Shown here in pieces: positions 26,290 to 39,889 of a DNA stretch of 64,000 bases; the stretch's first letter is position 1; the number at the start of each line of letters is the position of its first letter. The translations under genes were made by a program, and so were the position numbers. Source of the stretch: a bacterium. Lineage in GTDB: Bacteria > Caldisericota > Caldisericia > Cryosericales > Cryosericaceae. Location: positions 1 to 64,000 of the forward strand of contig JAJFTL010000007.1 of NCBI GenBank assembly GCA_021373025.1. The letters are read 5' to 3'. The notes beneath the pieces were generated by a model, which saw only the letters and a list, made by a program, of their open reading frames with translations, searched no databases and was not told where the DNA came from.

Positions 26290-29200
26290 TCAAGGTTGAG
26301 GATAGGTGATCGTAATGGTCTGAGTCGAAGCTTCCCACCGCACGTCGGCACCCAGACTCTCAGCAACGAAGCGAAGGGGAAGCATTGTAAGACCGTTCAG
26401 AATTTGGGGCACGACCTTCGCATTTGTGCTGTCGATGGCTGTCACCCTGCCATTCACCAGCGCTGTTGGCTTTCCAACAACCAGCTTCAACTGGGTTCCA
26501 TCGAGGGAGATCATCACGGTCTGGCTGCCGGCATCCCAGGAAACCGTCCCGCCAAGCGACTCCACAACTGCTCGAATCGGGACCAGCGTTCTTCCCTCGA
26601 CAATGACCGGCACAGCATCCAGTGCAATACTGGAGCCACCAGCCTTCATCATTCGAGAACCAACCCTGAGAACAAGAACAGTGCTTGCCTTTTCGGCTAT
26701 GACGCGAACAGGAATGGCGCGAGCCTTGCCAGCCAGTTGCTGCACGCCTCCATTGCCACCCAACAGTTGAAGCCGGTCAATATTCACCTGTGTCGTCCCA
26801 GCTTCCAATGCCTTGAATGTCAGAGTAGCGATGCTCCCATTGCTAGTAACAGGGTTGGCATCGCCCGTGAGTGTCAGGGCCACTGTTGCTTCGCCTGCGG
26901 TACTATGACTCTCGATAAACAGCGTGTCAGCACCTAGCAAGTTTCCACGGGTGATACTCATGAGCTGCAACGCTGTGATGTCATACGTCACGTGGCAGCT
27001 CGCTCCGTAGAGATTCTCGACCCCCTGCGCGCTCAGTGGCACTTGTACCGTGGCTCCCATGACAGTTTCCACAAGCACTCCCCCAACGACGACAAGAGGA
27101 GCCGTCCGGATCACGACGTTCGCATGAACAGTCACGGCTCTCGTGGAATCGAGGGCGCTGCGGACTTCAATATCGACCGGACAAACCGTTCCGCGAGAAG
27201 CCGCTGAAGGAGCGCGGACGGTCACAGTCACAGCGCCCGTCGCTCCAGAAGGGACCGTGACTGAGGCACTGCTGACCGAACTCGACCAACCGCTGCCGCC
27301 TCGAACGGTCGACTTGACCGTAAAACTATCTGCCCGGGCACTCCGATTGCGGAGGCTTACTTGAAATTCAGTCGATGACCCAGCCGCGACCTGGCGTTCC
27401 ACTGCATCGAGCCGCACTGTCATGGCAGTACCCCATGGTGCCCGTTGCTGTTCGTAGCTCAGTTCACGAACCACGTTGTGAAAACCGTCAGTCAGGTAGA
27501 ATGTGCCCTGGGCTGACCACGTCATCCTGCCCGGCAGATACCAGGACCTCGATGTTGTCCAGGCGACCGAACCGTCCTGCGCGAACGCAACAAAGCGTCC
27601 ATTCTCCCCGTCGCTTACCAGAACAAGGCCATCGGGAAGCAGGACTGCATCGTGAGGATAATACAGCTGCCCTGCCCCTCGACCACCACCGGCTGATCCG
27701 TATGTCTTGAGGACGGCCCCCTTGGAGCTGTATCGAATGACCTGCTGAACATCGGACAACTCCCCCCACACGCACACCAGAAGGTCTCCTCCGGGAAGAA
27801 CGGTCAGGCCGCCCGGCATGCCGGGCGTCGGAAATCGACCGAGTTCAGCCCCGTCAGCCCCCAGATGGACGACAGACCCGTCACCTTGATTGCAGGCCCA
27901 TAGCGTACCGTCACCAGCTACCTCAAGGTCGCTTGCCCCGTCGACCTTGCCAGCTGCAATGGTCCTGACATAAGTGCCGGCTTCATCATAAACGGCAATA
28001 AACCCTCCCCTGGTATCCTGTGCTGCGATATAGACCAGCCCCGCACCATTGGCTGCAACAGACTCCACCAGCTGCATGGAGCGGGAGCCAGCGCGCATGA
28101 CCGCAAATAGTTCGTTGCCGCTAGCGTCCAGCACGTCTGCGTAGCCCCTGTTCCATTCGATCGTTGTGCCGTCAGAAGAAACGACAGGCCAACTGCAGGC
28201 CACCCACAGTTGGCCTTTACCGTCCACGGCAACATCCTGGGGATTGTTGAGGCGTCCGCGAAGACCCTGGGCATACTCCTGAACGGCTACGACGCCTCCA
28301 CCCGGTGCGTACTCGATCAGCTTTGCATGGAAGCCGCTGCCGAACGGATTCGTCGAGTCACGGAAGAACCCGCTGTTCATGACATACACCAGTCCATCGG
28401 GCGTGACAGCGACACCGCCAGGGCTAAGCACCTCGCTCTCCTGAATATCTGCCATATCAATCGGATACTGGCCAAAGCTGCGCTGATACTGTCCACTGCT
28501 GGAGAAGACCTTGACAGCTGGAACCGGCAGCTGACCCGTGCCGCGGTCTGCAACATAGATGCTCCCTTTGGCGTCTACGGCAAGGTCAGCTGCACTGGTA
28601 ATACGATCTTCTGCTTCGCCGGGAGCCGCAAAAACACGCACGGCCTTCGTTCCATTCAAGCGATAGATGGCACTGTCGCCGCTGGCAACAACATACGGGA
28701 CGGCTCCTGCCGACGTCATGCCCGCAGGATGAGAGATACCTGTCACGGTCGCTACCCAGGTACCTGCAGTGGTAAACTGTTGCAGGCGATTATTCAACTG
28801 GTCCGCTACCCAGATACTGCCGTCTGGCAGCACGGCGATGCCGGCGGGCCCTTCAAACTGGCCGGCTCCCTTTCCTTCAGAGCCGAACTCCATCAGCACG
28901 GACCCATCAGTGCTGTACTTGACGACCTTGTTGCCAAAGAAGTCTGCAACATAGAGATTTCCTGTGCTGTCCACGGCAACATCGGCAGGATACTGCAACT
29001 GGCCGCGTCCACCACCCAGTGAGCCCACGGTGCGCTTATGAACCAGATTTTCTGAAAGGATGTGGACGCGGCCATATCCAGTATCACACACGACGACGTC
29101 CCCATTCGGAAGAACAGCCACGCCCTGAGATGGGAATGCGTGAGCCGACGGGTAATCCTTCTCCACTGTATTGATGCTTTCAATGGTCAGTGTCCCGACG

Positions 29201-29331
29201 TAGTCAGAGGGCATCACCCCAATCGTGTCGACCTCGGTCAAGCCAACAGCTCCCTGTGTCACTCTCAGACCAGATTTGACGGGCGAGACAAGGAGAACAA
29301 TCACGCACAGGAAACCAATCATTCTCTTCAT
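26290..29331 (-). CDS. Secreted NHL-propeller protein with cohesin and copper-amine-oxidase-N-like domains
   Basis: Encodes 1013 aa. A signal peptide is visible at residues 1-20 (MKRMIGFLCVIVLLVSPVKS). NHL-type beta-propeller repeats run from about 65 to 630 (for example YPADVAVDSTGNLYVADFFG and PAGIAVLPDGSIWVADQ). A NEW3/CARDB-like beta domain follows at about 640-745, a cohesin domain at about 748-875 (VPLSAQGVENLYGASCHVTY), and a copper-amine-oxidase N-terminal-like domain at about 905-1008 with its two LVPIRAVVESLGG-type repeats. Each part suggests binding or scaffolding outside the cell; no enzyme centre is seen. It follows the subtilase gene by 9 bp, so they form one operon. The ATG at 29331 is set by TAGGAG upstream. 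Confidence 0.85.
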   Translation of the reverse strand: MKRMIGFLCVIVLLVSPVKSGLRVTQGAVGLTEVDTIGVMPSDYVGTLTIESINTVEKDYPSAHAFPSQGVAVLPNGDVVVCDTGYGRVHILSENLVHKRTVGSLGGGRGQLQYPADVAVDSTGNLYVADFFGNKVVKYSTDGSVLMEFGSEGKGAGQFEGPAGIAVLPDGSIWVADQLNNRLQQFTTAGTWVATVTGISHPAGMTSAGAVPYVVASGDSAIYRLNGTKAVRVFAAPGEAEDRITSAADLAVDAKGSIYVADRGTGQLPVPAVKVFSSSGQYQRSFGQYPIDMADIQESEVLSPGGVAVTPDGLVYVMNSGFFRDSTNPFGSGFHAKLIEYAPGGGVVAVQEYAQGLRGRLNNPQDVAVDGKGQLWVACSWPVVSSDGTTIEWNRGYADVLDASGNELFAVMRAGSRSMQLVESVAANGAGLVYIAAQDTRGGFIAVYDEAGTYVRTIAAGKVDGASDLEVAGDGTLWACNQGDGSVVHLGADGAELGRFPTPGMPGGLTVLPGGDLLVCVWGELSDVQQVIRYSSKGAVLKTYGSAGGGRGAGQLYYPHDAVLLPDGLVLVSDGENGRFVAFAQDGSVAWTTSRSWYLPGRMTWSAQGTFYLTDGFHNVVRELSYEQQRAPWGTAMTVRLDAVERQVAAGSSTEFQVSLRNRSARADSFTVKSTVRGGSGWSSSVSSASVTVPSGATGAVTVTVRAPSAASRGTVCPVDIEVRSALDSTRAVTVHANVVIRTAPLVVVGGVLVETVMGATVQVPLSAQGVENLYGASCHVTYDITALQLMSITRGNLLGADTLFIESHSTAGEATVALTLTGDANPVTSNGSIATLTFKALEAGTTQVNIDRLQLLGGNGGVQQLAGKARAIPVRVIAEKASTVLVLRVGSRMMKAGGSSIALDAVPVIVEGRTLVPIRAVVESLGGTVSWDAGSQTVMISLDGTQLKLVVGKPTALVNGRVTAIDSTNAKVVPQILNGLTMLPLRFVAESLGADVRWEASTQTITITYPQP

Positions 29332-29340
29332 GACCATCTC

Positions 29341-32300
29341 CTAGGGGAACACTTCGCCGTAATGCTGACGCAGAATCTGCAGATCGGCATCATCGACGCG
29401 CCCATCACCATTGAGGTCAGCCATGGCATCATACAGCCTGTCACCGGTCTTCGAGCCATATGCTCGAGCAAGAGCGACCATGTCTGCCAAATCCACCCGG
29501 TTGTCACCGGTAATGTCCCACATGTTGCCGGCTGTTCGCAGCTTCAGAGTAAGTGTTTGTGCGATGGCTTCCCCGGTCCCGGTGCTCGTGACTGCCAGAG
29601 GCTTTTCGATCCACAGTTCCGTGGAACCGCTGTGCAGGACCGTGAACGTTACTGTGCACACACTGCCATGGCCCTGGACTGTTTCACTGCCTGTCGTTCC
29701 CTGGAGATGAATCACCCCTGATGAGGCATCGACCGTAGACAAGAATGTTGACGCAGACCTTCCTCCCTGGTTGAGGAAGTCGCCCTCCTTGATGGATTTC
29801 ACTGCGACATAGTAGGGTTCGAATTGTAGGGAGGCCATCACGCCCCCAATCCCCGTTGTGGTATCGATAGTGAGACTGATTACCAGATCTTCGCCCTCAC
29901 GGACACTCCCGCCCACGACGCTAAGACGAAGTATCGGGACGCCAGCTGCGCCCGTCACATGAATGGCCACCGATTGATGCGCTGCCTCGGTAACCAGAAG
30001 GTTGGTTGGATCGTTGTTGCTTTCCATCACAGAGGTTCTCAACTGATAGTCTCCGTCGGCCAGAAAGAGGTTGCCATGGACGTCACGCCCGTTCCATGTG
30101 AATGTGTGGTCACCCACCAGCAGCAATGACCGTCGGTACACGGTTCCCAGCGTTGTTGTGCCATCGGCGCTGATGACAGTTGTCACGACCTGAGACGCAA
30201 AGCTGGACCCCTGAGGCACATCGCCTGCTTCGACGGCAGGACGAATGCCCCCATAGCCGATGTTGAACCCCACGTCCATCGTGCCACCGGGAACTGCCAA
30301 GGTCGATGTGCTCGTCCACAGCCCGCTCAACTGCTGGGGAACCTCAACGTCGTTTCGCCAGTAGATATAGGGTACGTGCAGGGTTCCGCCGGTGGACGAC
30401 AGCGTAATGATCCCTTCGTGCGGTCCATCTGCAACCGCTGCCGGGTCCACGGTCGTCGTGACAGTCACTTGTGCGGTTCCCCCGGCGGCGATGGTGACAG
30501 TGGACGGAGCAAAAGTCACCTTGACACCCGCCTGGGCATTCATCGTCCAATTGAATGACGGCGTGAACGTGGCACTACGGTCCAGGAGACTGCGCAGCTT
30601 GATGGTCGTGCCAGTTTCAATGCTGTCGTCGTTGACCAGAACAGCTCCCGTCTGAATCGTTGTCGTGCCATCCGACGTGCCTACCCCCGCAACGGCCGGT
30701 GCAGCTATGGCAGCCGGCACATCGACCCGTCCGGCTCCCTGCAGGGTCCATGTGATGATTTCATTGTTCTGCCAATTCGACAGGACATCCGCGGTATTCA
30801 TCAGCGCCAGCTTGACTGTCTCTGGCGTCCAGGTGGGATGCGCGGCCTTGATGAGGGCAACAGCTCCGGCTACGCCCGGCGATGCCATTGACGTGCCGTC
30901 CAACTTTACATACGTGCCACCAGGAAACGTTGAATCTACACTGACGCCAGGGGCCGACACGTCCGGCTTGAAGTGAAAGTCCTCCGTGGGTCCCATCGAG
31001 GTGAAGTCCGCTATCGTCCCGAGGTTACTGCGTGTGCCAAACCGAACGACAAGTCCTCTGGTCGTCAATGCCTTCAAGTCAAGTCCTGCATCCTGCGTGA
31101 TACCGATACACGGTATATATGTCCTGTTTTCATCCCCAGGCGCCACCCTGAGCGTCATGCCCAGCACTCCAGGACTGTGGTTGTAGATGATGATGCCGGC
31201 AGCTCCCGCGTCCAATGCATTGAGGACCTTGTCGCGGAAGTAGATACCACCACTTCCGATTGGCCCCCTCTCTACAAGAGCAACTTTCCCTTTGACATTC
31301 ACGGCGGCAAAATCTGCTTTCGAGCCGTAGCCAGCATCTACGATACTGTACGTCGAGCCTTCCTTGAACTCGGGGGCAATGTCGGCATAGCTGCCCATAA
31401 TATCCCCCAGGTTCGTTCCGGTCGGGTTCATAACCTGTATAACAGGATAGGGGCCATCGTTGGAGGCTGCAACGGCGATGGCATTGAGTGCTGTTGCAGG
31501 AGAGCCCAGAGGCCAGTTGGTTTCAGGGTTGCGCGGGCCCGAATTGCCCGTCGCTGCAACGACCACGACGCCCGCCTTGACTGCGTTGTTGATGGACTCG
31601 GTCTCAGGGCTGTCAGCCGTGCCCCCCGTCATCCCCAGCGACATGTTGACCACAGTACAGTGGTCCCGGACAGAGCGGTCCAGCGCAGCGATAATGTCTC
31701 CATCGGCAGCCCCGCCCCCCCGGTCACTGAACACCTTGTACGCATAGAGCTTCGCCTTTGGTGCGACGCCCTGCACTTTTCCATCCGCCGCTGCAATGCC
31801 TGCAACGTGCGTCCCGTGGCCCTGGATGTCCCTGGGGTTACTGTCGCCATCGGCGAAATCATATCCTCCCACAACTTTTTTGTTTGGGAACCTAGCTCCA
31901 CCCAGATCCGGATGCGTGTAGTCGATACCCGTGTCGATGATGCCAATGGTCGTGCCGCTACCATCCAGTTTCTGCCCTGCAGCAGAGGTTCGGCTCCACA
32001 AAGCGTTGTCGACACCCATGGCGGCATTGGCATCGCTATCGATGATCTGGGCCTGCAGAGATTCGTAGATAAAGGACACATGCTTTGTCTGGGCAATGGC
32101 GGCGAGGTCGCTGCCAGCAACGCTCAAAGCAAGACCATTGAAGGTCACGCTCAGCCGTTGCTTGACGGTATAGGGGATACCATGGGCAGTCAGGGACCCT
32201 AGAAAGGCATCCTGTTCCCGGGAAATTTCTTGCTCTGCCACCTGCGCCGCCACGCTGTCCAACCACCCCACTGCTCCAGCATCCCGCACTCTCTCAACCA

Positions 32301-32487
32301 GTGCAGGACCCTGCATGCGGACGATCACGTTCTGAGGAAAGGGCAGTGACCCGACACGGGACAGGAAGGCTGCATCGATCGTGGGCAAGTTCTCAGCACC
32401 GTGCACGGGGTTCACCGGCAACACGCACCCCATGAGCAGAACCACCACGAGTACAATCCTCAGATGCCATTGGAATCGTTTCGTCAT
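29341..32487 (-). CDS. Secreted subtilisin-like protease with PA, cohesin-like and dockerin domains
   Basis: Encodes 1048 aa. A signal peptide covers about residues 1-31, then an inhibitor-I9-like propeptide. The S8 catalytic triad is D185 (IIDTGIDYTHPDL), H224 (GHGTHVAG) and S533 (GTSMASPG), with oxyanion N315. A PA domain is inserted at about 375-475. C-terminal beta domains follow, then a cohesin-like domain (about 850-985) and a type I dockerin (about 989-1046) with two calcium loops (DITGDNRVDLADMV and DLNGDGRVDDADLQ). The dockerin could tether the enzyme to a cohesin such as that of the next gene. It would break down external protein, feeding the amino-acid importers. AGGAGG precedes the ATG. 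Confidence 0.92.
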   Translation of the reverse strand: MTKRFQWHLRIVLVVVLLMGCVLPVNPVHGAENLPTIDAAFLSRVGSLPFPQNVIVRMQGPALVERVRDAGAVGWLDSVAAQVAEQEISREQDAFLGSLTAHGIPYTVKQRLSVTFNGLALSVAGSDLAAIAQTKHVSFIYESLQAQIIDSDANAAMGVDNALWSRTSAAGQKLDGSGTTIGIIDTGIDYTHPDLGGARFPNKKVVGGYDFADGDSNPRDIQGHGTHVAGIAAADGKVQGVAPKAKLYAYKVFSDRGGGAADGDIIAALDRSVRDHCTVVNMSLGMTGGTADSPETESINNAVKAGVVVVAATGNSGPRNPETNWPLGSPATALNAIAVAASNDGPYPVIQVMNPTGTNLGDIMGSYADIAPEFKEGSTYSIVDAGYGSKADFAAVNVKGKVALVERGPIGSGGIYFRDKVLNALDAGAAGIIIYNHSPGVLGMTLRVAPGDENRTYIPCIGITQDAGLDLKALTTRGLVVRFGTRSNLGTIADFTSMGPTEDFHFKPDVSAPGVSVDSTFPGGTYVKLDGTSMASPGVAGAVALIKAAHPTWTPETVKLALMNTADVLSNWQNNEIITWTLQGAGRVDVPAAIAAPAVAGVGTSDGTTTIQTGAVLVNDDSIETGTTIKLRSLLDRSATFTPSFNWTMNAQAGVKVTFAPSTVTIAAGGTAQVTVTTTVDPAAVADGPHEGIITLSSTGGTLHVPYIYWRNDVEVPQQLSGLWTSTSTLAVPGGTMDVGFNIGYGGIRPAVEAGDVPQGSSFASQVVTTVISADGTTTLGTVYRRSLLLVGDHTFTWNGRDVHGNLFLADGDYQLRTSVMESNNDPTNLLVTEAAHQSVAIHVTGAAGVPILRLSVVGGSVREGEDLVISLTIDTTTGIGGVMASLQFEPYYVAVKSIKEGDFLNQGGRSASTFLSTVDASSGVIHLQGTTGSETVQGHGSVCTVTFTVLHSGSTELWIEKPLAVTSTGTGEAIAQTLTLKLRTAGNMWDITGDNRVDLADMVALARAYGSKTGDRLYDAMADLNGDGRVDDADLQILRQHYGEVFP

Positions 32488-32543
32488 CGTTTCCTCCTGC
32501 GCCACTATCAGGGCACATTCAACCCATACAGGCAGACGTATTT

Positions 32544-32572
32544 GGTATACCCCCAAACACCTGCACGGTCAA
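32544..32572 (-). promoter_or_regulatory. Promoter of the subtilase operon
   Basis: On the minus strand TTGACC (32567-32572), 17-nt spacer, TATACC (32544-32549), 56 bases before the start codon. Both boxes differ from consensus by one or two bases. Confidence 0.6.
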
Positions 32573-32762: not shown

Positions 32763-32790
32763 TTGCGAAGTGCGTGGCACCGTCTATACT
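32763..32790 (+). promoter_or_regulatory. Probable promoter of the tungstate/cofactor operon
   Basis: TTGCGA (32763-32768), 16-nt spacer, TATACT (32785-32790). Transcription from here would produce a leader of about 120 nt that contains the riboswitch-like element. Confidence 0.5.
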
Positions 32791-32833
32791 ATCGTTGTCT
32801 GTGGTAGTTGCCACAGATAACGATTCTTCGAGC

Positions 32834-32914
32834 TGCCTGACCTTGGCAACAGCCGTGGCATGCAGCCGGTAGGGTGTGGTTGGAAACGGCCACGCCTCCC
32901 ATTGAGGAAAGGAG
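32834..32914 (+). ncRNA. Molybdenum/tungsten-cofactor (Moco) riboswitch-like leader
   Basis: The leader follows the layout of the Moco RNA motif known from the E. coli moaA leader. P1 is CCT-GA-CCTT (32836-32844) facing AGGAAAGG (32905-32912). Then come TTGG, GCCGTGGC (32852-32859) with a small hairpin to GCC, and AGGG (32871-32874). A P3-like stem, GTGTGG with CCACGC, runs directly into CCTCCC (32895-32900). GCCGTG, AGGG-stem-CCTCCC and GGAAAGG occur in the same order as I remember them in the E. coli leader. The 3' strand of P1 includes AAAGGAG, the ribosome binding site of the next gene, so ligand-stabilised folding would block translation. The genes it precedes are tungstate uptake and cofactor synthesis, which supports the call. 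It was recognised by eye; no covariance search was possible. Confidence 0.7.
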
Positions 32915-32919
32915 AAACA

Positions 32920-34731
32920 ATGAAACGAGATCTGTCACGTCTGCTTGTCCGTCGCATCCTTGCGACGGCGCTTGTTCTTGCATTCTTGTCCATGGCATCC
33001 ACTCTCTCAGTGCACGCCGCATCCCTCTCTGATATCGCCGGGCGTCCTGACCAGGCAGTTATCGAGAGAGTAGTTGCCAAAGGGTTCATGAGGGGCTATC
33101 CGGATGGTACCTTCCGGCCGAATGCTCCCATCACCCGTGCTGAGTTTGTGGTTGCCCTCGCACGCTCTGCAGGGCTCGACCCTGTGCAGTCGCCCGCCAG
33201 GACGTTCACAGACCTGCCGACAGGCAACTGGGCTGCTCCTCTCGTCTACGCCGCAGTTGCCAAGGGCTGGATCTCGGGGTACCAAAATGGCACCTTCCAC
33301 CCGACAGCCAACATTACACGTGAAGAGTCCATGGTGGTCGTCGCACAGCGGATGGGTTTTGAGATCCGTGGTATGGCGACCCATGTTGTACTGGACAAGG
33401 TTGCAGGTTCTGAGGATCTCTCACTGTGGGCACGAACCGCTGCCGCTGCATGTGTGCAAGAGGGCATGGTCAGGGATATAACCAAGCCGACTGCTGCCAT
33501 CAACCGTGCCCAGGCCGCTGCCTACCTCCCTGCCATCATGGACTACAAGGCACCTGAGGCGCAGTCGATGGTCCTCGCCACAACGACCTCGACTTATGAT
33601 TCCGGCCTGCTTAACTTCCTTGTTCCAATCTTCGAGAAGTCCAACCATGTCAAGGTCAAGATCATCTCCGTCGGTACCGGTCAGGCTATCACGACCGCGC
33701 GAAAAGGTGATGCCGACGTCTTGCTTGTCCATGCGCGCGCCCAGGAAGACCAGTTCATGGCCGATGGGTTTGGTCTCTTCCGGAAGGACGTGATGTACAA
33801 CGACTTTATCATCATCGGACCAGCCAGCGATCCCGCAAAGATCAAGGGCATGACGGACGCCGCCGCCGCGTTCGCGAAGCTCGCTGCCTCGGGCTCGACC
33901 TTCATCAGCCGTGGCGACAAGTCGGGTACCAACACCAAGGAACTGGACATCTGGAAATCCGCCGGCATCACCCCTGCCGGCAAGTCCTGGTACGTCAACG
34001 CCGGGCAGGGCATGGGCGAAGTCCTCATCATGGCTGACCAGAAACAGGCGTACACACTTACCGACCGTGCCACGTACCTCGCCTATCAAAACGGCGGCAA
34101 GATCAACCTGCCCATCCTTGTAGAGGGGTCGCAGGGACTGCTTAACCCATATGGCATCATACCCATCAACCCAGCCAAGTACCCGAGCGTCAAGGTCGAT
34201 CTGGCTGTTCGATTTGCGGATTTCATGACCGGCCTCCCCGGCCAGGAACTGATCAAGAGCTTCGGCGTCGAGCAGTACGGCCAGACTCTCTTCTACCCGG
34301 ATTCCACGGAGTGGAAGGCCACACGGAGCCTGGACATAGTCCTGCCAAACGGGAAAGAAGTCACGTATCATCTGAACGACGTGCGCAACTTCCCGGTGAC
34401 GACCATCAAGGTCTACCCGAACAACAACCAGTCGCTTGCTCCTGTTTCATATGGTGGTGTCCAGCTCATAGATATCCTGAAGATCATCTCGCCGGAACTC
34501 GCCTCGGCGAAGCGTCTGACTGTCATTGCCACAGCAACCGATGGCAGCCACGTGACGCTGGATTATGACGACATCTACAACACGCGCACGGGCACAAAGA
34601 TCACGGTCGTCTACCTCAAGAACGGTACGACGCTTTCGACTGATGAAGGGTTCATGGCACTCATGACGACCAGGGGCGCGTTTCTGGTCAACAACATCAA
34701 ATACGTATACAAGCTCGAAGTCCACAAGTAG
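32920..34731 (+). CDS. tupA: S-layer-anchored tungstate-binding protein (SLH-TupA fusion) with SUOX-like C-terminal domain
   Basis: Encodes 603 aa. A signal peptide ends near residue 34 (STLSVHAAS). Three SLH repeats follow at about 36-210 (GYPDGTFRPNAPITRAEF, GYQNGTFHPTANITREE, then a weaker third). A TupA-type oxyanion-binding domain spans about 215-465: LATTTSTYDSGLLNFLVPIF, GTGQAITTARKGDADVLLVH and SRGDKSGTNTKELDIWK match tungstate-binding proteins. The last ~130 residues (YGGVQLIDILKIISPE) resemble the molybdopterin-binding domain of sulfite oxidases. Ordinary TupA is a lipoprotein of about 280 aa; anchoring by SLH repeats and the extra domain are unusual. tupB and tupC follow. The ATG at 32920 has AAAGGAG seven bases upstream. 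Confidence 0.87.
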   Translation: MKRDLSRLLVRRILATALVLAFLSMASTLSVHAASLSDIAGRPDQAVIERVVAKGFMRGYPDGTFRPNAPITRAEFVVALARSAGLDPVQSPARTFTDLPTGNWAAPLVYAAVAKGWISGYQNGTFHPTANITREESMVVVAQRMGFEIRGMATHVVLDKVAGSEDLSLWARTAAAACVQEGMVRDITKPTAAINRAQAAAYLPAIMDYKAPEAQSMVLATTTSTYDSGLLNFLVPIFEKSNHVKVKIISVGTGQAITTARKGDADVLLVHARAQEDQFMADGFGLFRKDVMYNDFIIIGPASDPAKIKGMTDAAAAFAKLAASGSTFISRGDKSGTNTKELDIWKSAGITPAGKSWYVNAGQGMGEVLIMADQKQAYTLTDRATYLAYQNGGKINLPILVEGSQGLLNPYGIIPINPAKYPSVKVDLAVRFADFMTGLPGQELIKSFGVEQYGQTLFYPDSTEWKATRSLDIVLPNGKEVTYHLNDVRNFPVTTIKVYPNNNQSLAPVSYGGVQLIDILKIISPELASAKRLTVIATATDGSHVTLDYDDIYNTRTGTKITVVYLKNGTTLSTDEGFMALMTTRGAFLVNNIKYVYKLEVHK

Positions 34732-34757: not shown

Positions 34758-35477
34758 ATGGGTGATATTGGCCGAGGCCTGGTCCAGGCCGTTCACCTCA
34801 TCGTCTCGCTGGATCCAGGCACGTACGAGGCCTTGGGAACTTCTCTTCGCGTCACATTGAGTGCACTGCTGTGGTCAGCGCTGGTTGGATTTCCTCTCGG
34901 CATCCTGCTCGCCTTTGCCCACTTCCGGGGCAAGCAGGGTATCATGAATGTGATGTACACGTTTATGGGGTTTCCGCCCGTCGTGGCAGGACTCCTGGTG
35001 TACTTGCTGCTCTCTCGCAGCGGACCACTCGGGCCACTTGAGCTGCTCTACACACCGACGGCCATGATCATTGCACAGATCCTTCTTGCTCTGCCCGTTA
35101 TCATCGGACTCACCGTGCTGGGGCTTCGCAGTGCCGACAAGGGGGTCGTTGACCTGGCACTGACGCTGGGAGCCACACGCAGACAGGCGTCGTTCGCGCT
35201 TGTTCGGGACGCCCGTCTCGCCATCCTCGGGGCTGTCATCACGGCCTTTGGCAATGCAATGAGCGAGGTGGGGGCGGCTATGCTGGTCGGTGGCAATATC
35301 GAAGGGGCCACCCGTACCCTGACGACCGCGCTCATGCTGGAGACCCGCCAGGGCAGTTTCGACCGTGCCATCGCGCTGGGTATTATCCTCCTCCTCGTCT
35401 CATTCCTCGTCAACGTCCTTTTGTCCCGCCTGGGCGAGAGCACTTCAGAGACCGGCAATGTCCGCCACATTGACTGA
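34758..35477 (+). CDS. tupB: Tungstate ABC transporter permease TupB
   Basis: Encodes 239 aa with five to six membrane helices. The binding-protein-dependent permease loop is GLRSADKGVVDLALTLGATR followed by AILGAVITAFGNAMSEVGAAMLVGGN, which is close to TupB/WtpB-type permeases. It should form the homodimeric channel fed by the SLH-TupA protein. It begins 26 bp after tupA and overlaps tupC by 20 bp. Molybdate or another oxyanion could also pass, but the TupA-like binding protein favours tungstate. Confidence 0.88.
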   Translation: MGDIGRGLVQAVHLIVSLDPGTYEALGTSLRVTLSALLWSALVGFPLGILLAFAHFRGKQGIMNVMYTFMGFPPVVAGLLVYLLLSRSGPLGPLELLYTPTAMIIAQILLALPVIIGLTVLGLRSADKGVVDLALTLGATRRQASFALVRDARLAILGAVITAFGNAMSEVGAAMLVGGNIEGATRTLTTALMLETRQGSFDRAIALGIILLLVSFLVNVLLSRLGESTSETGNVRHID

Positions 35478-36246
35478 CCTGCTCATAGCCCACGGCATTG
35501 CCAAGCACTTCGGCTCGCGCGAAGTGCTGCGCGGTATCGATTTGAGCGTTCCGGCGCAAAGCATCACGGTCATCCTGGGCACCAATGGTGCTGGCAAAAC
35601 GACGCTGTTGCGTATCCTGGGGCTGCTGGATCCTGCCGATGCCGGAACGGTCACGTATGACGGCATCATCGCCGAGGAATCGAGTATCACATATAGCACT
35701 CCGTTGACGGGACCGGCTTATGACCGACGCACGCTGACCCTCCGTCGCCAGATGATGCTTGCATTTCAGCACCCCGTCGCCTTCAGTGGCTCAGTCCTCA
35801 GCAACGTGACGTATGGTCTGCTGCTCCGCGGCGTGGGCCGCGCTGAAGCCGAAAACCGGGCCATGGCCGCTCTGCGCGAAGCCGGCATTGACGAGCGTGC
35901 GCACCAGCATGCGTCGTCACTTTCTGGCGGTGAATCGGCGCGTCTGTCTCTTGCCAGGGCTCTTGCCCTGAAACCCGGCCTGCTGTTTCTGGATGAGCCG
36001 TCCGCAAGCCTTGACCCCCATGGCACCAAAGTGCTTGAGGATCTGCTACTTCACATGCGGGACGATCTCGGCATGACGGTGGTCGTCGTCACGCAGGACA
36101 TTTTTGAGGCCCGGCGCATCGCGGATCAGGTAGCGTTCCTCCACGAGGGGAGTATTATAGAACAGTCGTCACGCGACAGGTTCTTCGAGCAACCGCGCGA
36201 TGAGCGGACCCGTCGATTTCTGGCGGGCGACCTTCTTGTCACATAG
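35458..36246 (+). CDS. tupC: Tungstate ABC transporter ATP-binding protein TupC
   Basis: Encodes 262 aa. Walker A GTNGAGKTTLLRIL, the Q-loop near MMLAFQHPVAFSGSV, signature LSGGESARLSLARAL, Walker B LLFLDEPSASLDP and the switch element VVVVTQDIFEARRI are present. There is a small insertion between Walker A and the Q-loop (about residues 65-90). The start at 35458 lies inside the end of tupB, implying translational coupling. With TupA and TupB it completes the importer. Confidence 0.9.
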   Translation: MSATLTDLLIAHGIAKHFGSREVLRGIDLSVPAQSITVILGTNGAGKTTLLRILGLLDPADAGTVTYDGIIAEESSITYSTPLTGPAYDRRTLTLRRQMMLAFQHPVAFSGSVLSNVTYGLLLRGVGRAEAENRAMAALREAGIDERAHQHASSLSGGESARLSLARALALKPGLLFLDEPSASLDPHGTKVLEDLLLHMRDDLGMTVVVVTQDIFEARRIADQVAFLHEGSIIEQSSRDRFFEQPRDERTRRFLAGDLLVT

Positions 36247-36288
36247 GGACATCCCTATTTGTTGTAATTTCTGGCATGAGGAGCAATG

Positions 36289-37518
36289 ATGCTGAACACG
36301 CTAGAGGCACTGAACATAGTACTGGCTCATGCAGAACTTCTTGAGCCGGCTCGTATGCCGCTTGATAAGGCGGCAGGACTCGTACTGGCGGAAGATGTGA
36401 CCGCCCGGGGTAACGTGCCCCCCTTCGCCAATTCGGCCATGGATGGGTTCGCCGTCCTCGCTTCCGACATTCAGCAGGCGTCCGAGGCCACCCCTGTTCG
36501 ACTTCACATTTTGGAAGATGTCCCGGCAGGCAGTGTTGCAACCCAGCCCGTCCGCCCTGGCACCGCCATCCGCATCATGACCGGAGCTCCCCTCCCCGAT
36601 GGTGCCGACACTGTTGTCCACGTCGAAGTGACGCGCGTTGAAGGTAGCGACGTCGTGATCCTGCTCGCTCTCAAGAGCGGCTTCAACGTCCGCAGGGCGG
36701 GCGAAGATATGACTGACGGTACCGTCGTCCTGCACGCCGGGAGCACCCTGCGGCCCGGCGAGATCGGCGTCTGTGCCGCAGCTGGCCATGATGCTGTCTC
36801 CGTGTATCCGCGGGCCCGTGTCGCTATTCTGACGACCGGCAGTGAACTGGTGGACGCAGCAGACGAACTGACTCCGGGGCACATCCGTGACGCCAATGCG
36901 CATTCCCTGCGGGCTCAGATCGCAGCGATCGGAGCAGTACCCGTCGTCTTTGCACGCGTTCCTGACACGCGCGACGCTGTCCGATCATCGTTGGAGCAAG
37001 CTCTCGCTGGTTCCGATGTCGTGCTCACCAACGGAGGCATTTCTGTCGGCGATTATGACTTCGTCAAGGACGTTCTTGAGGAGATGGGAGCGCAGCTCGT
37101 CTTCTGGCGCGTGAAGCAAAAACCGGGGAAACCCATGGCTTTCTGGACCCTTGGACACAAACGCATCGTCGGCCTGCCGGGCAACCCGGTATCCTGCATG
37201 GTCTGCGTCGAAGAGTACGTGCGTCCTTTGATTCGCCGGATGATGGGTTTTTCCCTGCTGCACCGTCCAGAACGCTCAGCAGTGTTCGATGAACGCTACT
37301 CCAAAGGATCCGACGCAGGGCGTGTCCACTTCGTGCGCGTTCTCCTGGAACAGCGTGACGGCACCCTGCACGCTCGCCCCACCGGTCCTCAGGGCTCCGG
37401 TATCCTCACCTCCATGGCGCGCGCGGAGGCCATTGCCATTATTCCGGAAGAGGCTACTGTCATCGACGCGGGCGCTACGGTCCAGGTACAGCTCACCGAC
37501 CTGCCCGAGGACCACTGA
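36289..37518 (+). CDS. moeA: Molybdopterin molybdenumtransferase MoeA
   Basis: Encodes 409 aa, full MoeA length. It inserts molybdate or tungstate into adenylated molybdopterin. Motifs are PPFANSAMDGFAVLA in the N-terminal part, TNGGISVGDYDFVKDV in the MPT-binding core and LPGNPVSCMVCVEEY near the active site; domain IV closes the protein. Of two adjacent ATGs the second (36289) has the better spacing from GAGGAG; 36286 remains possible. It follows tupC by 42 bp and overlaps moaA by one base. Linking MoeA to tungstate import suggests a tungsten-containing cofactor. Confidence 0.93.
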   Translation: MLNTLEALNIVLAHAELLEPARMPLDKAAGLVLAEDVTARGNVPPFANSAMDGFAVLASDIQQASEATPVRLHILEDVPAGSVATQPVRPGTAIRIMTGAPLPDGADTVVHVEVTRVEGSDVVILLALKSGFNVRRAGEDMTDGTVVLHAGSTLRPGEIGVCAAAGHDAVSVYPRARVAILTTGSELVDAADELTPGHIRDANAHSLRAQIAAIGAVPVVFARVPDTRDAVRSSLEQALAGSDVVLTNGGISVGDYDFVKDVLEEMGAQLVFWRVKQKPGKPMAFWTLGHKRIVGLPGNPVSCMVCVEEYVRPLIRRMMGFSLLHRPERSAVFDERYSKGSDAGRVHFVRVLLEQRDGTLHARPTGPQGSGILTSMARAEAIAIIPEEATVIDAGATVQVQLTDLPEDH

Positions 37519-38483
37519 TGCAGGACCGCCTTGGACGTACGATCGACTACGTCCGTATCTCCGTCACCGATCGCTGCAACCTGCGGTGCCGGTACTGCAT
37601 GCCTGAGGAGGGCGTGCCTATGCTGCAGCACGAGGATATCCTGCGCTTCGAGGAGATCACGGCCTTCATGCGGGTCGCGGTTGGGCAGGGCATCGTCAAG
37701 GTGCGCCTCACCGGCGGCGAGCCACTAAACCGTCCGGGCATCGTGAACCTCGTCCGCATGCTGCTGGACATTCCCGGGCTCAAGGACCTCTCATTGACGA
37801 CCAACGGTACACTGCTGCCCCAGTTTGCCCCCCATCTCAAAGCAGCTGGTCTGAAACGCATCAACATCGGCCTGCCATCGCTGGACCCGGCTACCTATGC
37901 GTACCTGACCCGTCTGGGCTCGCTGGATCAGGCCCTTGCAGGGCTGAAAGCTGCGATCGACACGGGCTTCAGTCCGGTCAAGCTCAACGTCGTCGTCTTG
38001 CGTGGAGTCAACGACGACCTGGCACCGTACCTGGATCTTACCAGACGACTGCCCGTCGAGGTCCGTTTCATCGAGTACATGACCATTGGCCCCCTGGGCG
38101 AGGACCACTACCTCGTGCCCGCAGCTGAACTGCGCCGAAAACTGGAGGCGCTCGCCGCGCTGGAACCGGCTGAAAAGCCACAGGGCAACGGTCCTGCTCA
38201 ACAATATTTCCGCATCCCGGGAGCTCCCGGAACAGTAGCAATCATCGCGCCTATGACCGAGCACTTTTGTCCGACCTGCAACCGCCTGCGTCTGGTCGCG
38301 GACGGTCATCTGCGCCTCTGTCTCTTCGGTGCCGACGAGATTGACATCAAGCCGGCGCTGCGTCCCACGGTCGATGAGGAAGCCCTGCGCCGGTTACTCG
38401 AGCAGGCAATGCAGCAAAAACCAGAATGCATGCCCGACACCGCCCGTGATTACGGCCGAGCGATGGGGAGCATAGGAGGATAG
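37518..38483 (+). CDS. moaA: GTP 3',8-cyclase MoaA
   Basis: Encodes 321 aa, a radical-SAM enzyme that starts pterin-cofactor synthesis from GTP. The first cluster motif is CNLRCRYCMP (CX3CX2C) near residue 20; the second C-terminal cluster is in CPTCNRLRLVADGHLRLC, the substrate-binding set of MoaA. The protein ends in SIGG, the essential Gly-Gly tail of the family. The start overlaps the moeA stop (TGATG). Its product is rearranged by MoaC, encoded 2 bp downstream. Confidence 0.96.
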   Translation: MQDRLGRTIDYVRISVTDRCNLRCRYCMPEEGVPMLQHEDILRFEEITAFMRVAVGQGIVKVRLTGGEPLNRPGIVNLVRMLLDIPGLKDLSLTTNGTLLPQFAPHLKAAGLKRINIGLPSLDPATYAYLTRLGSLDQALAGLKAAIDTGFSPVKLNVVVLRGVNDDLAPYLDLTRRLPVEVRFIEYMTIGPLGEDHYLVPAAELRRKLEALAALEPAEKPQGNGPAQQYFRIPGAPGTVAIIAPMTEHFCPTCNRLRLVADGHLRLCLFGADEIDIKPALRPTVDEEALRRLLEQAMQQKPECMPDTARDYGRAMGSIGG

Positions 38484-38484
38484 T

Positions 38485-38967
38485 ATGGCTGAAACTAGTT
38501 TGACACACCTGGACGAAAATGGCAATGCCCGCATGATTGACGTCAGCGCCAAGGTGGAGACTGCCCGCGAAGCAGTCGCCCGCTGCCGCGTCATGCTGGC
38601 GCCCGCCACCTTTGATCTGATCAAGGCTGGCAATATTAAGAAGGGCGATGTCCTGACGGTCGCTCAGGTCGCCGGCATTCAGGCGGCCAAGCGCACGTGG
38701 GAGCTGATCCCCCTGTGCCACCCGATCACGCTGACCTTTGTCGGCGTTGTATTGACGCCAAACGACGCAGAACACACCGTCGACATCGAGGCAACAGCCC
38801 GAACGGTGTCCGAGACCGGTGTCGAGATGGAGGCGCTGGTCGCCGCCTCTACGGCAGCCCTGACGATCTATGATATGTGTAAGGGCGTTGAGCGCGGTAT
38901 TCGCATCACCGATCTCCGGCTCATCCGCAAGAGCGGCGGACAGTCGGGACTCTGGGAGGGCGCGTGA
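38485..38967 (+). CDS. moaC: Cyclic pyranopterin monophosphate synthase MoaC
   Basis: Encodes 160 aa, standard size. It converts the MoaA product to cyclic pyranopterin monophosphate. The active-site pieces are IPLCHPITLT (catalytic region), TGVEMEALVAASTAALTIYD and the lysine in MCKGVERGI; the C-terminus LIRKSGGQSG is typical. It overlaps the MOSC gene by four bases. moaD and moaE, needed to add the dithiolene sulfur, are absent from this cluster and must lie elsewhere. Confidence 0.96.
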   Translation: MAETSLTHLDENGNARMIDVSAKVETAREAVARCRVMLAPATFDLIKAGNIKKGDVLTVAQVAGIQAAKRTWELIPLCHPITLTFVGVVLTPNDAEHTVDIEATARTVSETGVEMEALVAASTAALTIYDMCKGVERGIRITDLRLIRKSGGQSGLWEGA

Positions 38968-39416
38968 GCCAGTCGGTCGTCGTCTCCGTCAACATCTCGG
39001 AGCAGAAAGGCACGCGCAAGCATCCCCAGCAAGGCCCCGTCACCATCACTATGCTGGGCATACAGGGCGACGCCCACGCGGGGGACTGGCACCGTCAGCT
39101 CAGCCTGCTGGCGCAGGAGAGCATCGACAAGATGCAAGGTCACGGCCTTTTCCTGAAGCCCGGCGACTTTGCCGAAAACATCACGACACACGGCCTGGAT
39201 CTGCTGACTCTGCCGGTTGGGACTCGTCTTCGGATCGGCACCGTCACCATGGAAGTCACACAGATCGGGAAGGAATGCCACCTCGGCTGCGAGATCCGCA
39301 AGCTGGTCGGCGACTGCGTCATGCCCCGCGAGGGTATCTTCGCCCGCGTCATCACCGCCGGCACGATCCGGGCCGGCGACCTCATCACCCTCATCAGCAA
39401 AGGAGAAACCTTATGA
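38964..39416 (+). CDS. MOSC-domain protein
   Basis: Encodes 150 aa, essentially a single MOSC domain as found at the C-terminus of molybdenum-cofactor sulfurase. Features are GDAHAGDWHRQLSLL, FAENITTHGLDL and the conserved cysteine region IGKECHLGCEI. Stand-alone MOSC proteins in cofactor operons are thought to carry sulfur or bind the cofactor. The GTG start overlaps the moaC stop (GTGA) and the gene overlaps mogA by four bases, so it belongs to the operon. The precise reaction is not known. Confidence 0.88.
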   Translation: MSQSVVVSVNISEQKGTRKHPQQGPVTITMLGIQGDAHAGDWHRQLSLLAQESIDKMQGHGLFLKPGDFAENITTHGLDLLTLPVGTRLRIGTVTMEVTQIGKECHLGCEIRKLVGDCVMPREGIFARVITAGTIRAGDLITLISKGETL

Positions 39417-39889
39417 AAGCAGCAGTTTTGACCATCAGCGACAGTTGTGTGGCAGGAACCCGCGTGGACGAGAGCGGCCCGTTCATCGCCGGAAGGTTAC
39501 AAGGCGCAGGCTGGGCCATCGATGAGATGACCATCGTCCCGGACGAGCAGATGGAGATCGCCGAGATCATCGAGAAATGGGCGACCGGCCGTCACGTCGA
39601 CGTCATCATCACCACGGGTGGCACCGGTTTCTCCGCTCGCGACGTCACCCCTGAGGCGACGCTCTCGGTCATCGACCGCCGCACCCCTGGCATCAGTGAG
39701 GCTATCCGTCTCTACGGCCTCAACAAGGGTGTTCCTACTGCCTGCCTGTCCCGGGCCGAAGCCGGGCTGCGAGGTACCACCCTGATCATCAACCTCCCCG
39801 GCAGCCTTCATGCCGTTCAGGATGGGATGGACGTGCTCATCCCCCTGCTTCCCCATGCCCTGGAGATGATCGCAGGCAAGGGACACTAG
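39413..39889 (+). CDS. mog: Molybdopterin adenylyltransferase (MogA/MoaB family)
   Basis: Encodes 158 aa. It activates molybdopterin with ATP before metal insertion by MoeA. The MPT-binding motif TTGGTGFSARDVTPEAT, the segment SRAEAGLRGTTLIINLPGS and the N-terminal VLTISDSCVAGTRVDESGP are all family hallmarks. MogA and MoaB proteins are close relatives; context with MoeA supports this role. An ATGA overlap links it to the MOSC gene. It is the last gene of the operon; the next gene is convergent and no clear terminator is visible in the 32-bp gap. Confidence 0.9.
   Translation: MKAAVLTISDSCVAGTRVDESGPFIAGRLQGAGWAIDEMTIVPDEQMEIAEIIEKWATGRHVDVIITTGGTGFSARDVTPEATLSVIDRRTPGISEAIRLYGLNKGVPTACLSRAEAGLRGTTLIINLPGSLHAVQDGMDVLIPLLPHALEMIAGKGH

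Follow-up and report, generated by a model that had tools for sequence, protein, structure and literature searches.

A putative wall-anchored tungstate-binding protein with a C-terminal SUOX-like domain, encoded behind a Moco/Tuco riboswitch in Candidatus Cryosericum

Tungsten importers, such as TupABC, are usually regarded as consisting of three parts, of which the binding protein is a simple one. Genes for molybdenum and tungsten transport and for synthesis of the corresponding cofactors can be preceded by the Moco/Tuco riboswitch (RF01055), of which the members lacking the P3 helix represent the tungsten-linked form. Proteins of the SUOX fold, in turn, bind the cofactor's pterin part rather than the free oxyanion, and they include the solved structures 7kos, 7kou, 7kom and 7rkb, which we take to be pterin-binding SUOX-fold proteins of the PruR type. 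In Candidatus Cryosericum, a bacterium of permafrost and lake sediments, these elements appear to converge on one gene, where a tungstate-binding protein that is probably tethered to the cell wall carries a SUOX/pterin-fold module and is encoded behind a Moco/Tuco riboswitch. Our literature search for TupA with SLH repeats, or for SUOX-like domains of this small kind (mini-SUOX) together with molybdenum transport, found no paper. The locus lies in a 64,000-nucleotide stretch of contig JAJFTL010000007.1, referred to below as the window.

Architecture, anchoring and distribution of the three-part protein

The open reading frame at 32920-34731 encodes 603 amino acids without an internal stop, and its three-part SLH/TupA/mini-SUOX architecture is read directly off the sequence:

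32920..34731, + strand: three-part gene, SLH / TupA / C-terminal mini-SUOX (open reading frame and domain searches)
32920..33021, + strand: signal peptide, residues 1-34, ending ...SVHA|ASL, without a lipobox cysteine (sequence)
33028..33147, + strand: SLH repeat 1 (PF00395, 1.0e-12)
33202..33327, + strand: SLH repeat 2 (PF00395, 2.3e-9)
33388..33531, + strand: degenerate SLH repeat 3, residues ~157-204 (sub-threshold in Pfam)
33550..34311, + strand: TupA tungstate-binding domain, residues 211-464 (Pfam, NCBIfam, PDB match and site residues)
34312..34728, + strand: mini-SUOX domain at the C-terminus, from about residue 467 to 603, non-catalytic and without cysteine (Pfam and profile comparison)

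An initial sequence-only reading had described a fusion of these three parts, and the reading frame, Pfam, NCBIfam and profile comparisons all agree with it. It had also counted three SLH repeats. Two of these stand clearly above the Pfam cut-off (SLH overall, 1.6e-23), while the third is recognizable only in degenerate form, by its alignment with the clear third repeat of a related protein from a sister Caldisericota family (genome G047).

The signal peptide ends at an AxA-type site. A search for Omp85/BamA found none in the genome at E<0.01, and control genomes with outer membranes were positive; Caldisericum exile is likewise reported to lack BamA and to look Gram-positive-type (PMC4104836). 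Given the missing lipobox, together with the missing BamA, SLH anchoring likely keeps the binding protein near the membrane, such that the repeats would stand in for a lipid anchor; capture of tungstate at the S-layer in particular, as put forward in the sequence-only reading, is one possibility. This arrangement is apparently a habit of the lineage rather than a feature specific to tungstate, since the same genome encodes a second SLH-anchored solute-binding protein (G000:C17, L141 2920-5115) of the peptide-type family 5 (SBP_bac_5), with two permease-like genes downstream. Elsewhere in the window, an S8 protease with both cohesin and dockerin domains (29341-32556, - strand) adjoins an NHL protein with a cohesin domain and a Cu-amine-oxidase-N stalk (26290-29337, - strand); this pair, which is syntenic across Cryosericum, constitutes cellulosome-like pieces in Caldisericota.

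In a scan of GTDB genomes all close relatives of the protein (85-89% identity) came from Candidatus Cryosericum or related Caldiserica MAGs. Of 14 further Cryosericum genomes, 10 carried the C-terminal domain and four, all 61-87% complete, did not, and a single-sequence search at E<1e-3 found no copy elsewhere in the phylum. Its occurrence in at least 10 genomes from different samples, along with the purifying selection described below, rules out a chance fusion or an assembly artefact. A panel of 386 genomes included 79 with TupA, and among these a long SLH-TupA frame was found in Cryosericum and G047 only; a 565-aa TupA frame was seen in genome G400. The architecture had been suspected of being unusual, and indeed SLH-TupA-mini-SUOX was met only in Cryosericum across everything searched, although the panel holds one genome per lineage for a few hundred lineages and the architecture may therefore exist elsewhere.

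The tungstate operon and its riboswitch leader

The middle of the protein is a complete TupA-like domain by several measures. It matches PBP_like_2 in Pfam (2.6e-45), and the NCBIfam TupA model (NF041772) aligns over the full length of the domain (residues 214-464; 214.6 bits, E 1.6e-63), a score below the curated cut-off of 400 bits, by which strict standard the domain is a TupA relative and no certified equivalog. Among PDB entries the domain is most similar to 3lr1, a tungstate-binding protein of Geobacter (1.5e-86). The site residues reported for Desulfovibrio alaskensis TupA, namely TTTS, His59, Arg118, Thr124 and Asp170 (PMC5517513), have counterparts in TTTS221-224, H271, R331, T337 and D382 of the window protein, which are invariant in 8 of 8 Cryosericum sequences. 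Downstream the gene is followed by tungstate transport and cofactor genes in conserved synteny (tupBC-moeA-moaA-moaC-MOSC):

34758..35477, + strand: tupB, tungstate permease (NCBIfam TupB 8.6e-49, ABC_perm1 1e-73)
35458..36246, + strand: tupC, ABC ATPase, start inferred at MSATLTDLL (PF00005, 4e-25)
36286..37518, + strand: moeA (PF03453/PF00994/PF03454)
37518..38483, + strand: moaA (PF06463/PF04055)
38485..38967, + strand: moaC (PF01967, 4e-55)
38964..39416, + strand: MOSC-domain protein (PF03473, 1.7e-13)
39413..39889, + strand: mogA/moaB-like, start inferred (sequence motif only)

The intact site residues, the TupA matches and the tupBC operon thus argue well for tungstate as the likely substrate, as had been proposed from the sequence.

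The leader of the gene contains a riboswitch that had gone unmentioned in the sequence-only reading:

32763..32790, + strand: promoter-like site TTGCGA-16-TATACT, 24 nt ahead of the riboswitch (consensus scan, weak)
32814..32930, + strand: Moco/Tuco riboswitch aptamer RF01055, apparently without P3 (cmscan 59 bits, with the gathering score at 36, E 6e-14 to 1e-13)
32908..32914, + strand: Shine-Dalgarno-like AAAGGAG, within the aptamer's conserved 3' region (sequence)

RF01055 lies ahead of the three-part gene at each of the eight Cryosericum loci examined (the one in the window and seven others), and likewise ahead of the two-part SLH-TupA gene of G047, with scores of 55-67 bits in the relatives. 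Folding and pair counts favour an extended P2 (GCUGY/RCAGC, 19-23 with 50-54) that is 98% paired and includes two compensated pairs; as it joins the next conserved block directly, it would leave no space for P3. The Rfam alignment places a mismatched P3 in the aptamer. The position of the Shine-Dalgarno sequence inside the 3' strand of the aptamer suggests that the riboswitch would act at the level of translation. A further copy of the Moco/Tuco riboswitch was observed in Candidatus Cryosericum hinesii (L007 3011-3128 and 2914-4770), before an aldehyde dehydrogenase gene that adjoins the tup operon; this dehydrogenase might replace a tungsten enzyme without itself requiring tungsten.

The C-terminal domain and its stand-alone relatives

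The C-terminal module had been likened to the molybdopterin-binding fold of sulfite oxidases, and this resemblance holds, as a weak similarity to Oxidored_molyb and more clearly in profile-profile comparison. Searched in isolation, the C-terminal 140 amino acids match Oxidored_molyb (PF00174) with 25.9 bits (E 8.5e-6, cut-off 24) over the second half of the model only (57-161 of 169), whereas in the full-length protein the score of 20.9 bits is below that cut-off. For a profile built from Cryosericum sequences alone, the match was 98.2% with stand-alone mini-SUOX proteins and 94.3% with catalytic SUOX proteins, as against 4.3% for TupA. In addition, ordinary TupAs and the SLH-TupA of G047 end at an FxPD motif that marks the start of the C-terminal domain. 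Taken together, the junction and the profiles indicate an added SUOX-like domain, and an ordinary extension of the TupA fold, which had been raised as a possible explanation, is rejected.

A profile of mini-SUOX proteins that included the window domain found the "Pterin Binding Protein" 7kos (2.3e-5) and 7kom (4.4e-4) in the PDB, with sulfite oxidases ranking lower; the Cryosericum-only profile (A2) gave no match there. AlphaFold models of the domain alone (pLDDT 46, low confidence) and of the whole protein (pLDDT 38) were built on alignments of eight near-identical sequences and did not recover even the known TupA fold, so that they are uninformative about the fold of the C-terminus. Foldseek with the low-confidence domain model returned unrelated folds only (E > 0.03, TM about 0.3) and was discarded. 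No match to the domain was found in PHROGs, and a scan of viral contigs for mini-SUOX found none.

The domain contains no cysteine in any of the eight Cryosericum sequences, and since the catalytic Mo-thiolate is thereby absent it is no Moco enzyme, and a true molybdopterin-enzyme module is not supported. Changes also affect the catalytic G-P and K-W motifs, and identity to other mini-SUOX proteins is about 20-30%. Its core motifs are nonetheless invariant in the eight sequences, and dN/dS across these genes was 0.12 for the C-terminal part, as compared to 0.06 for TupA and 0.14 for the SLH part, showing that the domain is under purifying selection and hence maintained.

Stand-alone proteins with this domain occur in diverse molybdenum and tungsten loci. 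For example, in Deinococcus psychrotolerans the gene order is regulator(PBP_like)-modA-TOBE-mini-SUOX-modB, placing the domain within a molybdate ABC operon. In Nostoc it is accompanied by modD, molbindin and a MoeB-like gene (modD, mini-SUOX, molbindin, MoeB-like), on a Pseudomonas aeruginosa plasmid by a TonB receptor, moaA and nar genes (TonB receptor, mini-SUOX, moaA, nar), and in Caballeronia it lies beside nifQ. In genome G223 two mini-SUOX domains are fused to a tetrapyrrole-methylase (TP_methylase) domain (L104 4224-6035), with a TonB receptor and an HTH-PBP_like regulator adjoining. In G133 and G390 (L115/L196) the gene order is TonB receptor, mini-SUOX lipoprotein, ECF S-component, phosphodiesterase, mini-SUOX, EcfA, EcfA, EcfT, MobB; RF01055 precedes these operons too (L197 3673-3793 and L196 355-477). 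Survey enlargements centred on G223, G133 and G182 covered 3, 13 and 10 genomes. The TonB-ECF-MobB operons may encode a new ECF/TonB system that takes up molybdenum, tungsten or their cofactor.

A gene specific to molybdenum or tungsten lay near 6 of 11 mini-SUOX loci and 2 of 33 catalytic SUOX loci (Fisher p=0.0014), an association to be read as an upper estimate because the context library was partly drawn from mini-SUOX loci; the other 5 of the 11 had no such gene nearby in the same library. The RF01055 matches are independent of that library. A cysteine near the SUOX position is kept in the stand-alone relatives from Pseudomonas and Caballeronia and is absent in that from Deinococcus; "non-catalytic" is therefore established for the window protein but does not extend, as an established property, to the mini-SUOX group as a whole.

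Proposed function and comparison with described systems

We propose, with a probability of roughly 0.6, that the protein is a wall-anchored TupA of a TupABC importer equipped with an accessory SUOX-fold module, which would bind a ligand of molybdenum or tungsten uptake under riboswitch control. When the cofactor is scarce, the riboswitch would keep the ribosome-binding site accessible, allowing translation of the tup-moe-moa operon, a direction of control that we infer from the overlap of the aptamer with the Shine-Dalgarno sequence. The protein would be exported without a lipid anchor, and its SLH repeats would hold it in the wall at a short distance from the membrane. As the solute-binding subunit of the importer, its TupA domain would bind WO4(2-) and hand tungstate to TupBC. 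The mini-SUOX module would most likely bind a ligand of molybdenum or tungsten supply, for which a pterin-type molecule is favoured over the bare oxyanion, and this binding would aid capture or regulate uptake. That the domain may bind a pterin had been suggested earlier, and the suggestion gains some support from the proximity to 7kos and 7kom, the Moco riboswitch and the genomic contexts of mini-SUOX proteins. Since the sister SLH-TupA of G047 appears to function without it, the module is probably dispensable for uptake.

Alternatively, the C-terminus could be purely structural, a degenerate SUOX fold without its own ligand, through which TupA would dock to TupB or the wall. The missing cysteine, the altered motifs and the divergence from other mini-SUOX proteins would fit such a role, as would a TupA-like protein of G088 that bears an unrelated C-terminal stalk domain; yet the low dN/dS, the invariant core motifs and the recurrence of the family in molybdenum and tungsten loci make this explanation somewhat unlikely. 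The G088 protein (L201 845-2065), whose stalk is Cu-amine-oxidase-N-like, is a different wall-type fusion as judged by eye. A PruR-like sensor, in which pterin binding in the wall would signal through a membrane partner to control the transporter or a regulator, is suggested by the annotation of the nearest solved relatives as pterin-binding and by the control that PruR-type proteins exert over a membrane cyclic-di-GMP enzyme. We consider it unlikely, as the operon contains no membrane signalling partner and the domain is fused to a transport protein. A second site for binding or storing tungstate or molybdate in the wall is quite improbable: stand-alone relatives are indeed encoded within operons for molybdate or ECF/TonB uptake, but no conserved cluster of basic residues was identified, and the pterin preference of SUOX folds speaks against an oxyanion site. 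Finally, a catalytic molybdopterin enzyme fused to its own metal supplier, in favour of which the Oxidored_molyb match just over its cut-off can be cited, is extremely improbable: only half of the model is covered, the Mo-ligating cysteine is missing, and the same genome encodes a separate intact SUOX protein with its cysteine.

Returning to an accessory ligand-binding module as the preferred reading, the recurrence of mini-SUOX in unrelated molybdenum and tungsten loci, two of which are also behind Moco riboswitches, makes it a concrete candidate for an accessory part that has so far gone unrecognised. We tentatively raise the broader possibility that mini-SUOX domains form a general, undescribed accessory class of such uptake systems, in which extracytoplasmic pterin-fold modules would capture or sense pterin-bound molybdenum or tungsten, or the cofactor, being fused to TupA here, encoded separately in the Deinococcus molybdate ABC operon, and part of a riboswitch-controlled TonB-ECF-MobB operon elsewhere. 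If so, that operon would provide a new, ECF-type pathway by which molybdenum, tungsten or their cofactor is taken up, a prediction that is directly testable, and the accessory role would account for some small "molybdopterin-dependent oxidoreductase" proteins without a catalytic cysteine.

Compared with TupA of the described TupABC systems (Desulfovibrio alaskensis 5my5, Geobacter 3lr1), the window protein shares the whole domain, all reported site residues and the tupBC operon, but it is predicted to be neither lipid-anchored nor free in the periplasm, having instead an SLH anchor and an extra C-terminal domain. Its leader resembles described RF01055 members in scoring above the gathering threshold upstream of transport and cofactor genes, and differs in apparently being of the P3-less form. 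With the pterin-binding SUOX-fold proteins (7kos, 7kou, 7kom, 7rkb) it shares a small non-catalytic SUOX-fold domain, a likeness by profile (2.3e-5), whereas those proteins are not fused to a transport protein. The stand-alone mini-SUOX proteins of Deinococcus, Nostoc, Pseudomonas and Caballeronia, annotated as "molybdopterin-dependent oxidoreductase", have in common with it a domain of ~130 aa and a molybdenum or tungsten gene neighbourhood; they are separate proteins, some with the cysteine, whereas the Cryosericum domain is fused and has none. The G047 locus (L136) is similar in having three SLH repeats, TupA, tupBC and a Moco riboswitch, but there the protein has two parts and stops at the TupA domain, without mini-SUOX. 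TupABC importers, RF01055 and SUOX-fold pterin-binding proteins are each known, and what appears to be new in this comparison of sequences is their combination as an SLH-anchored TupA with a mini-SUOX domain.
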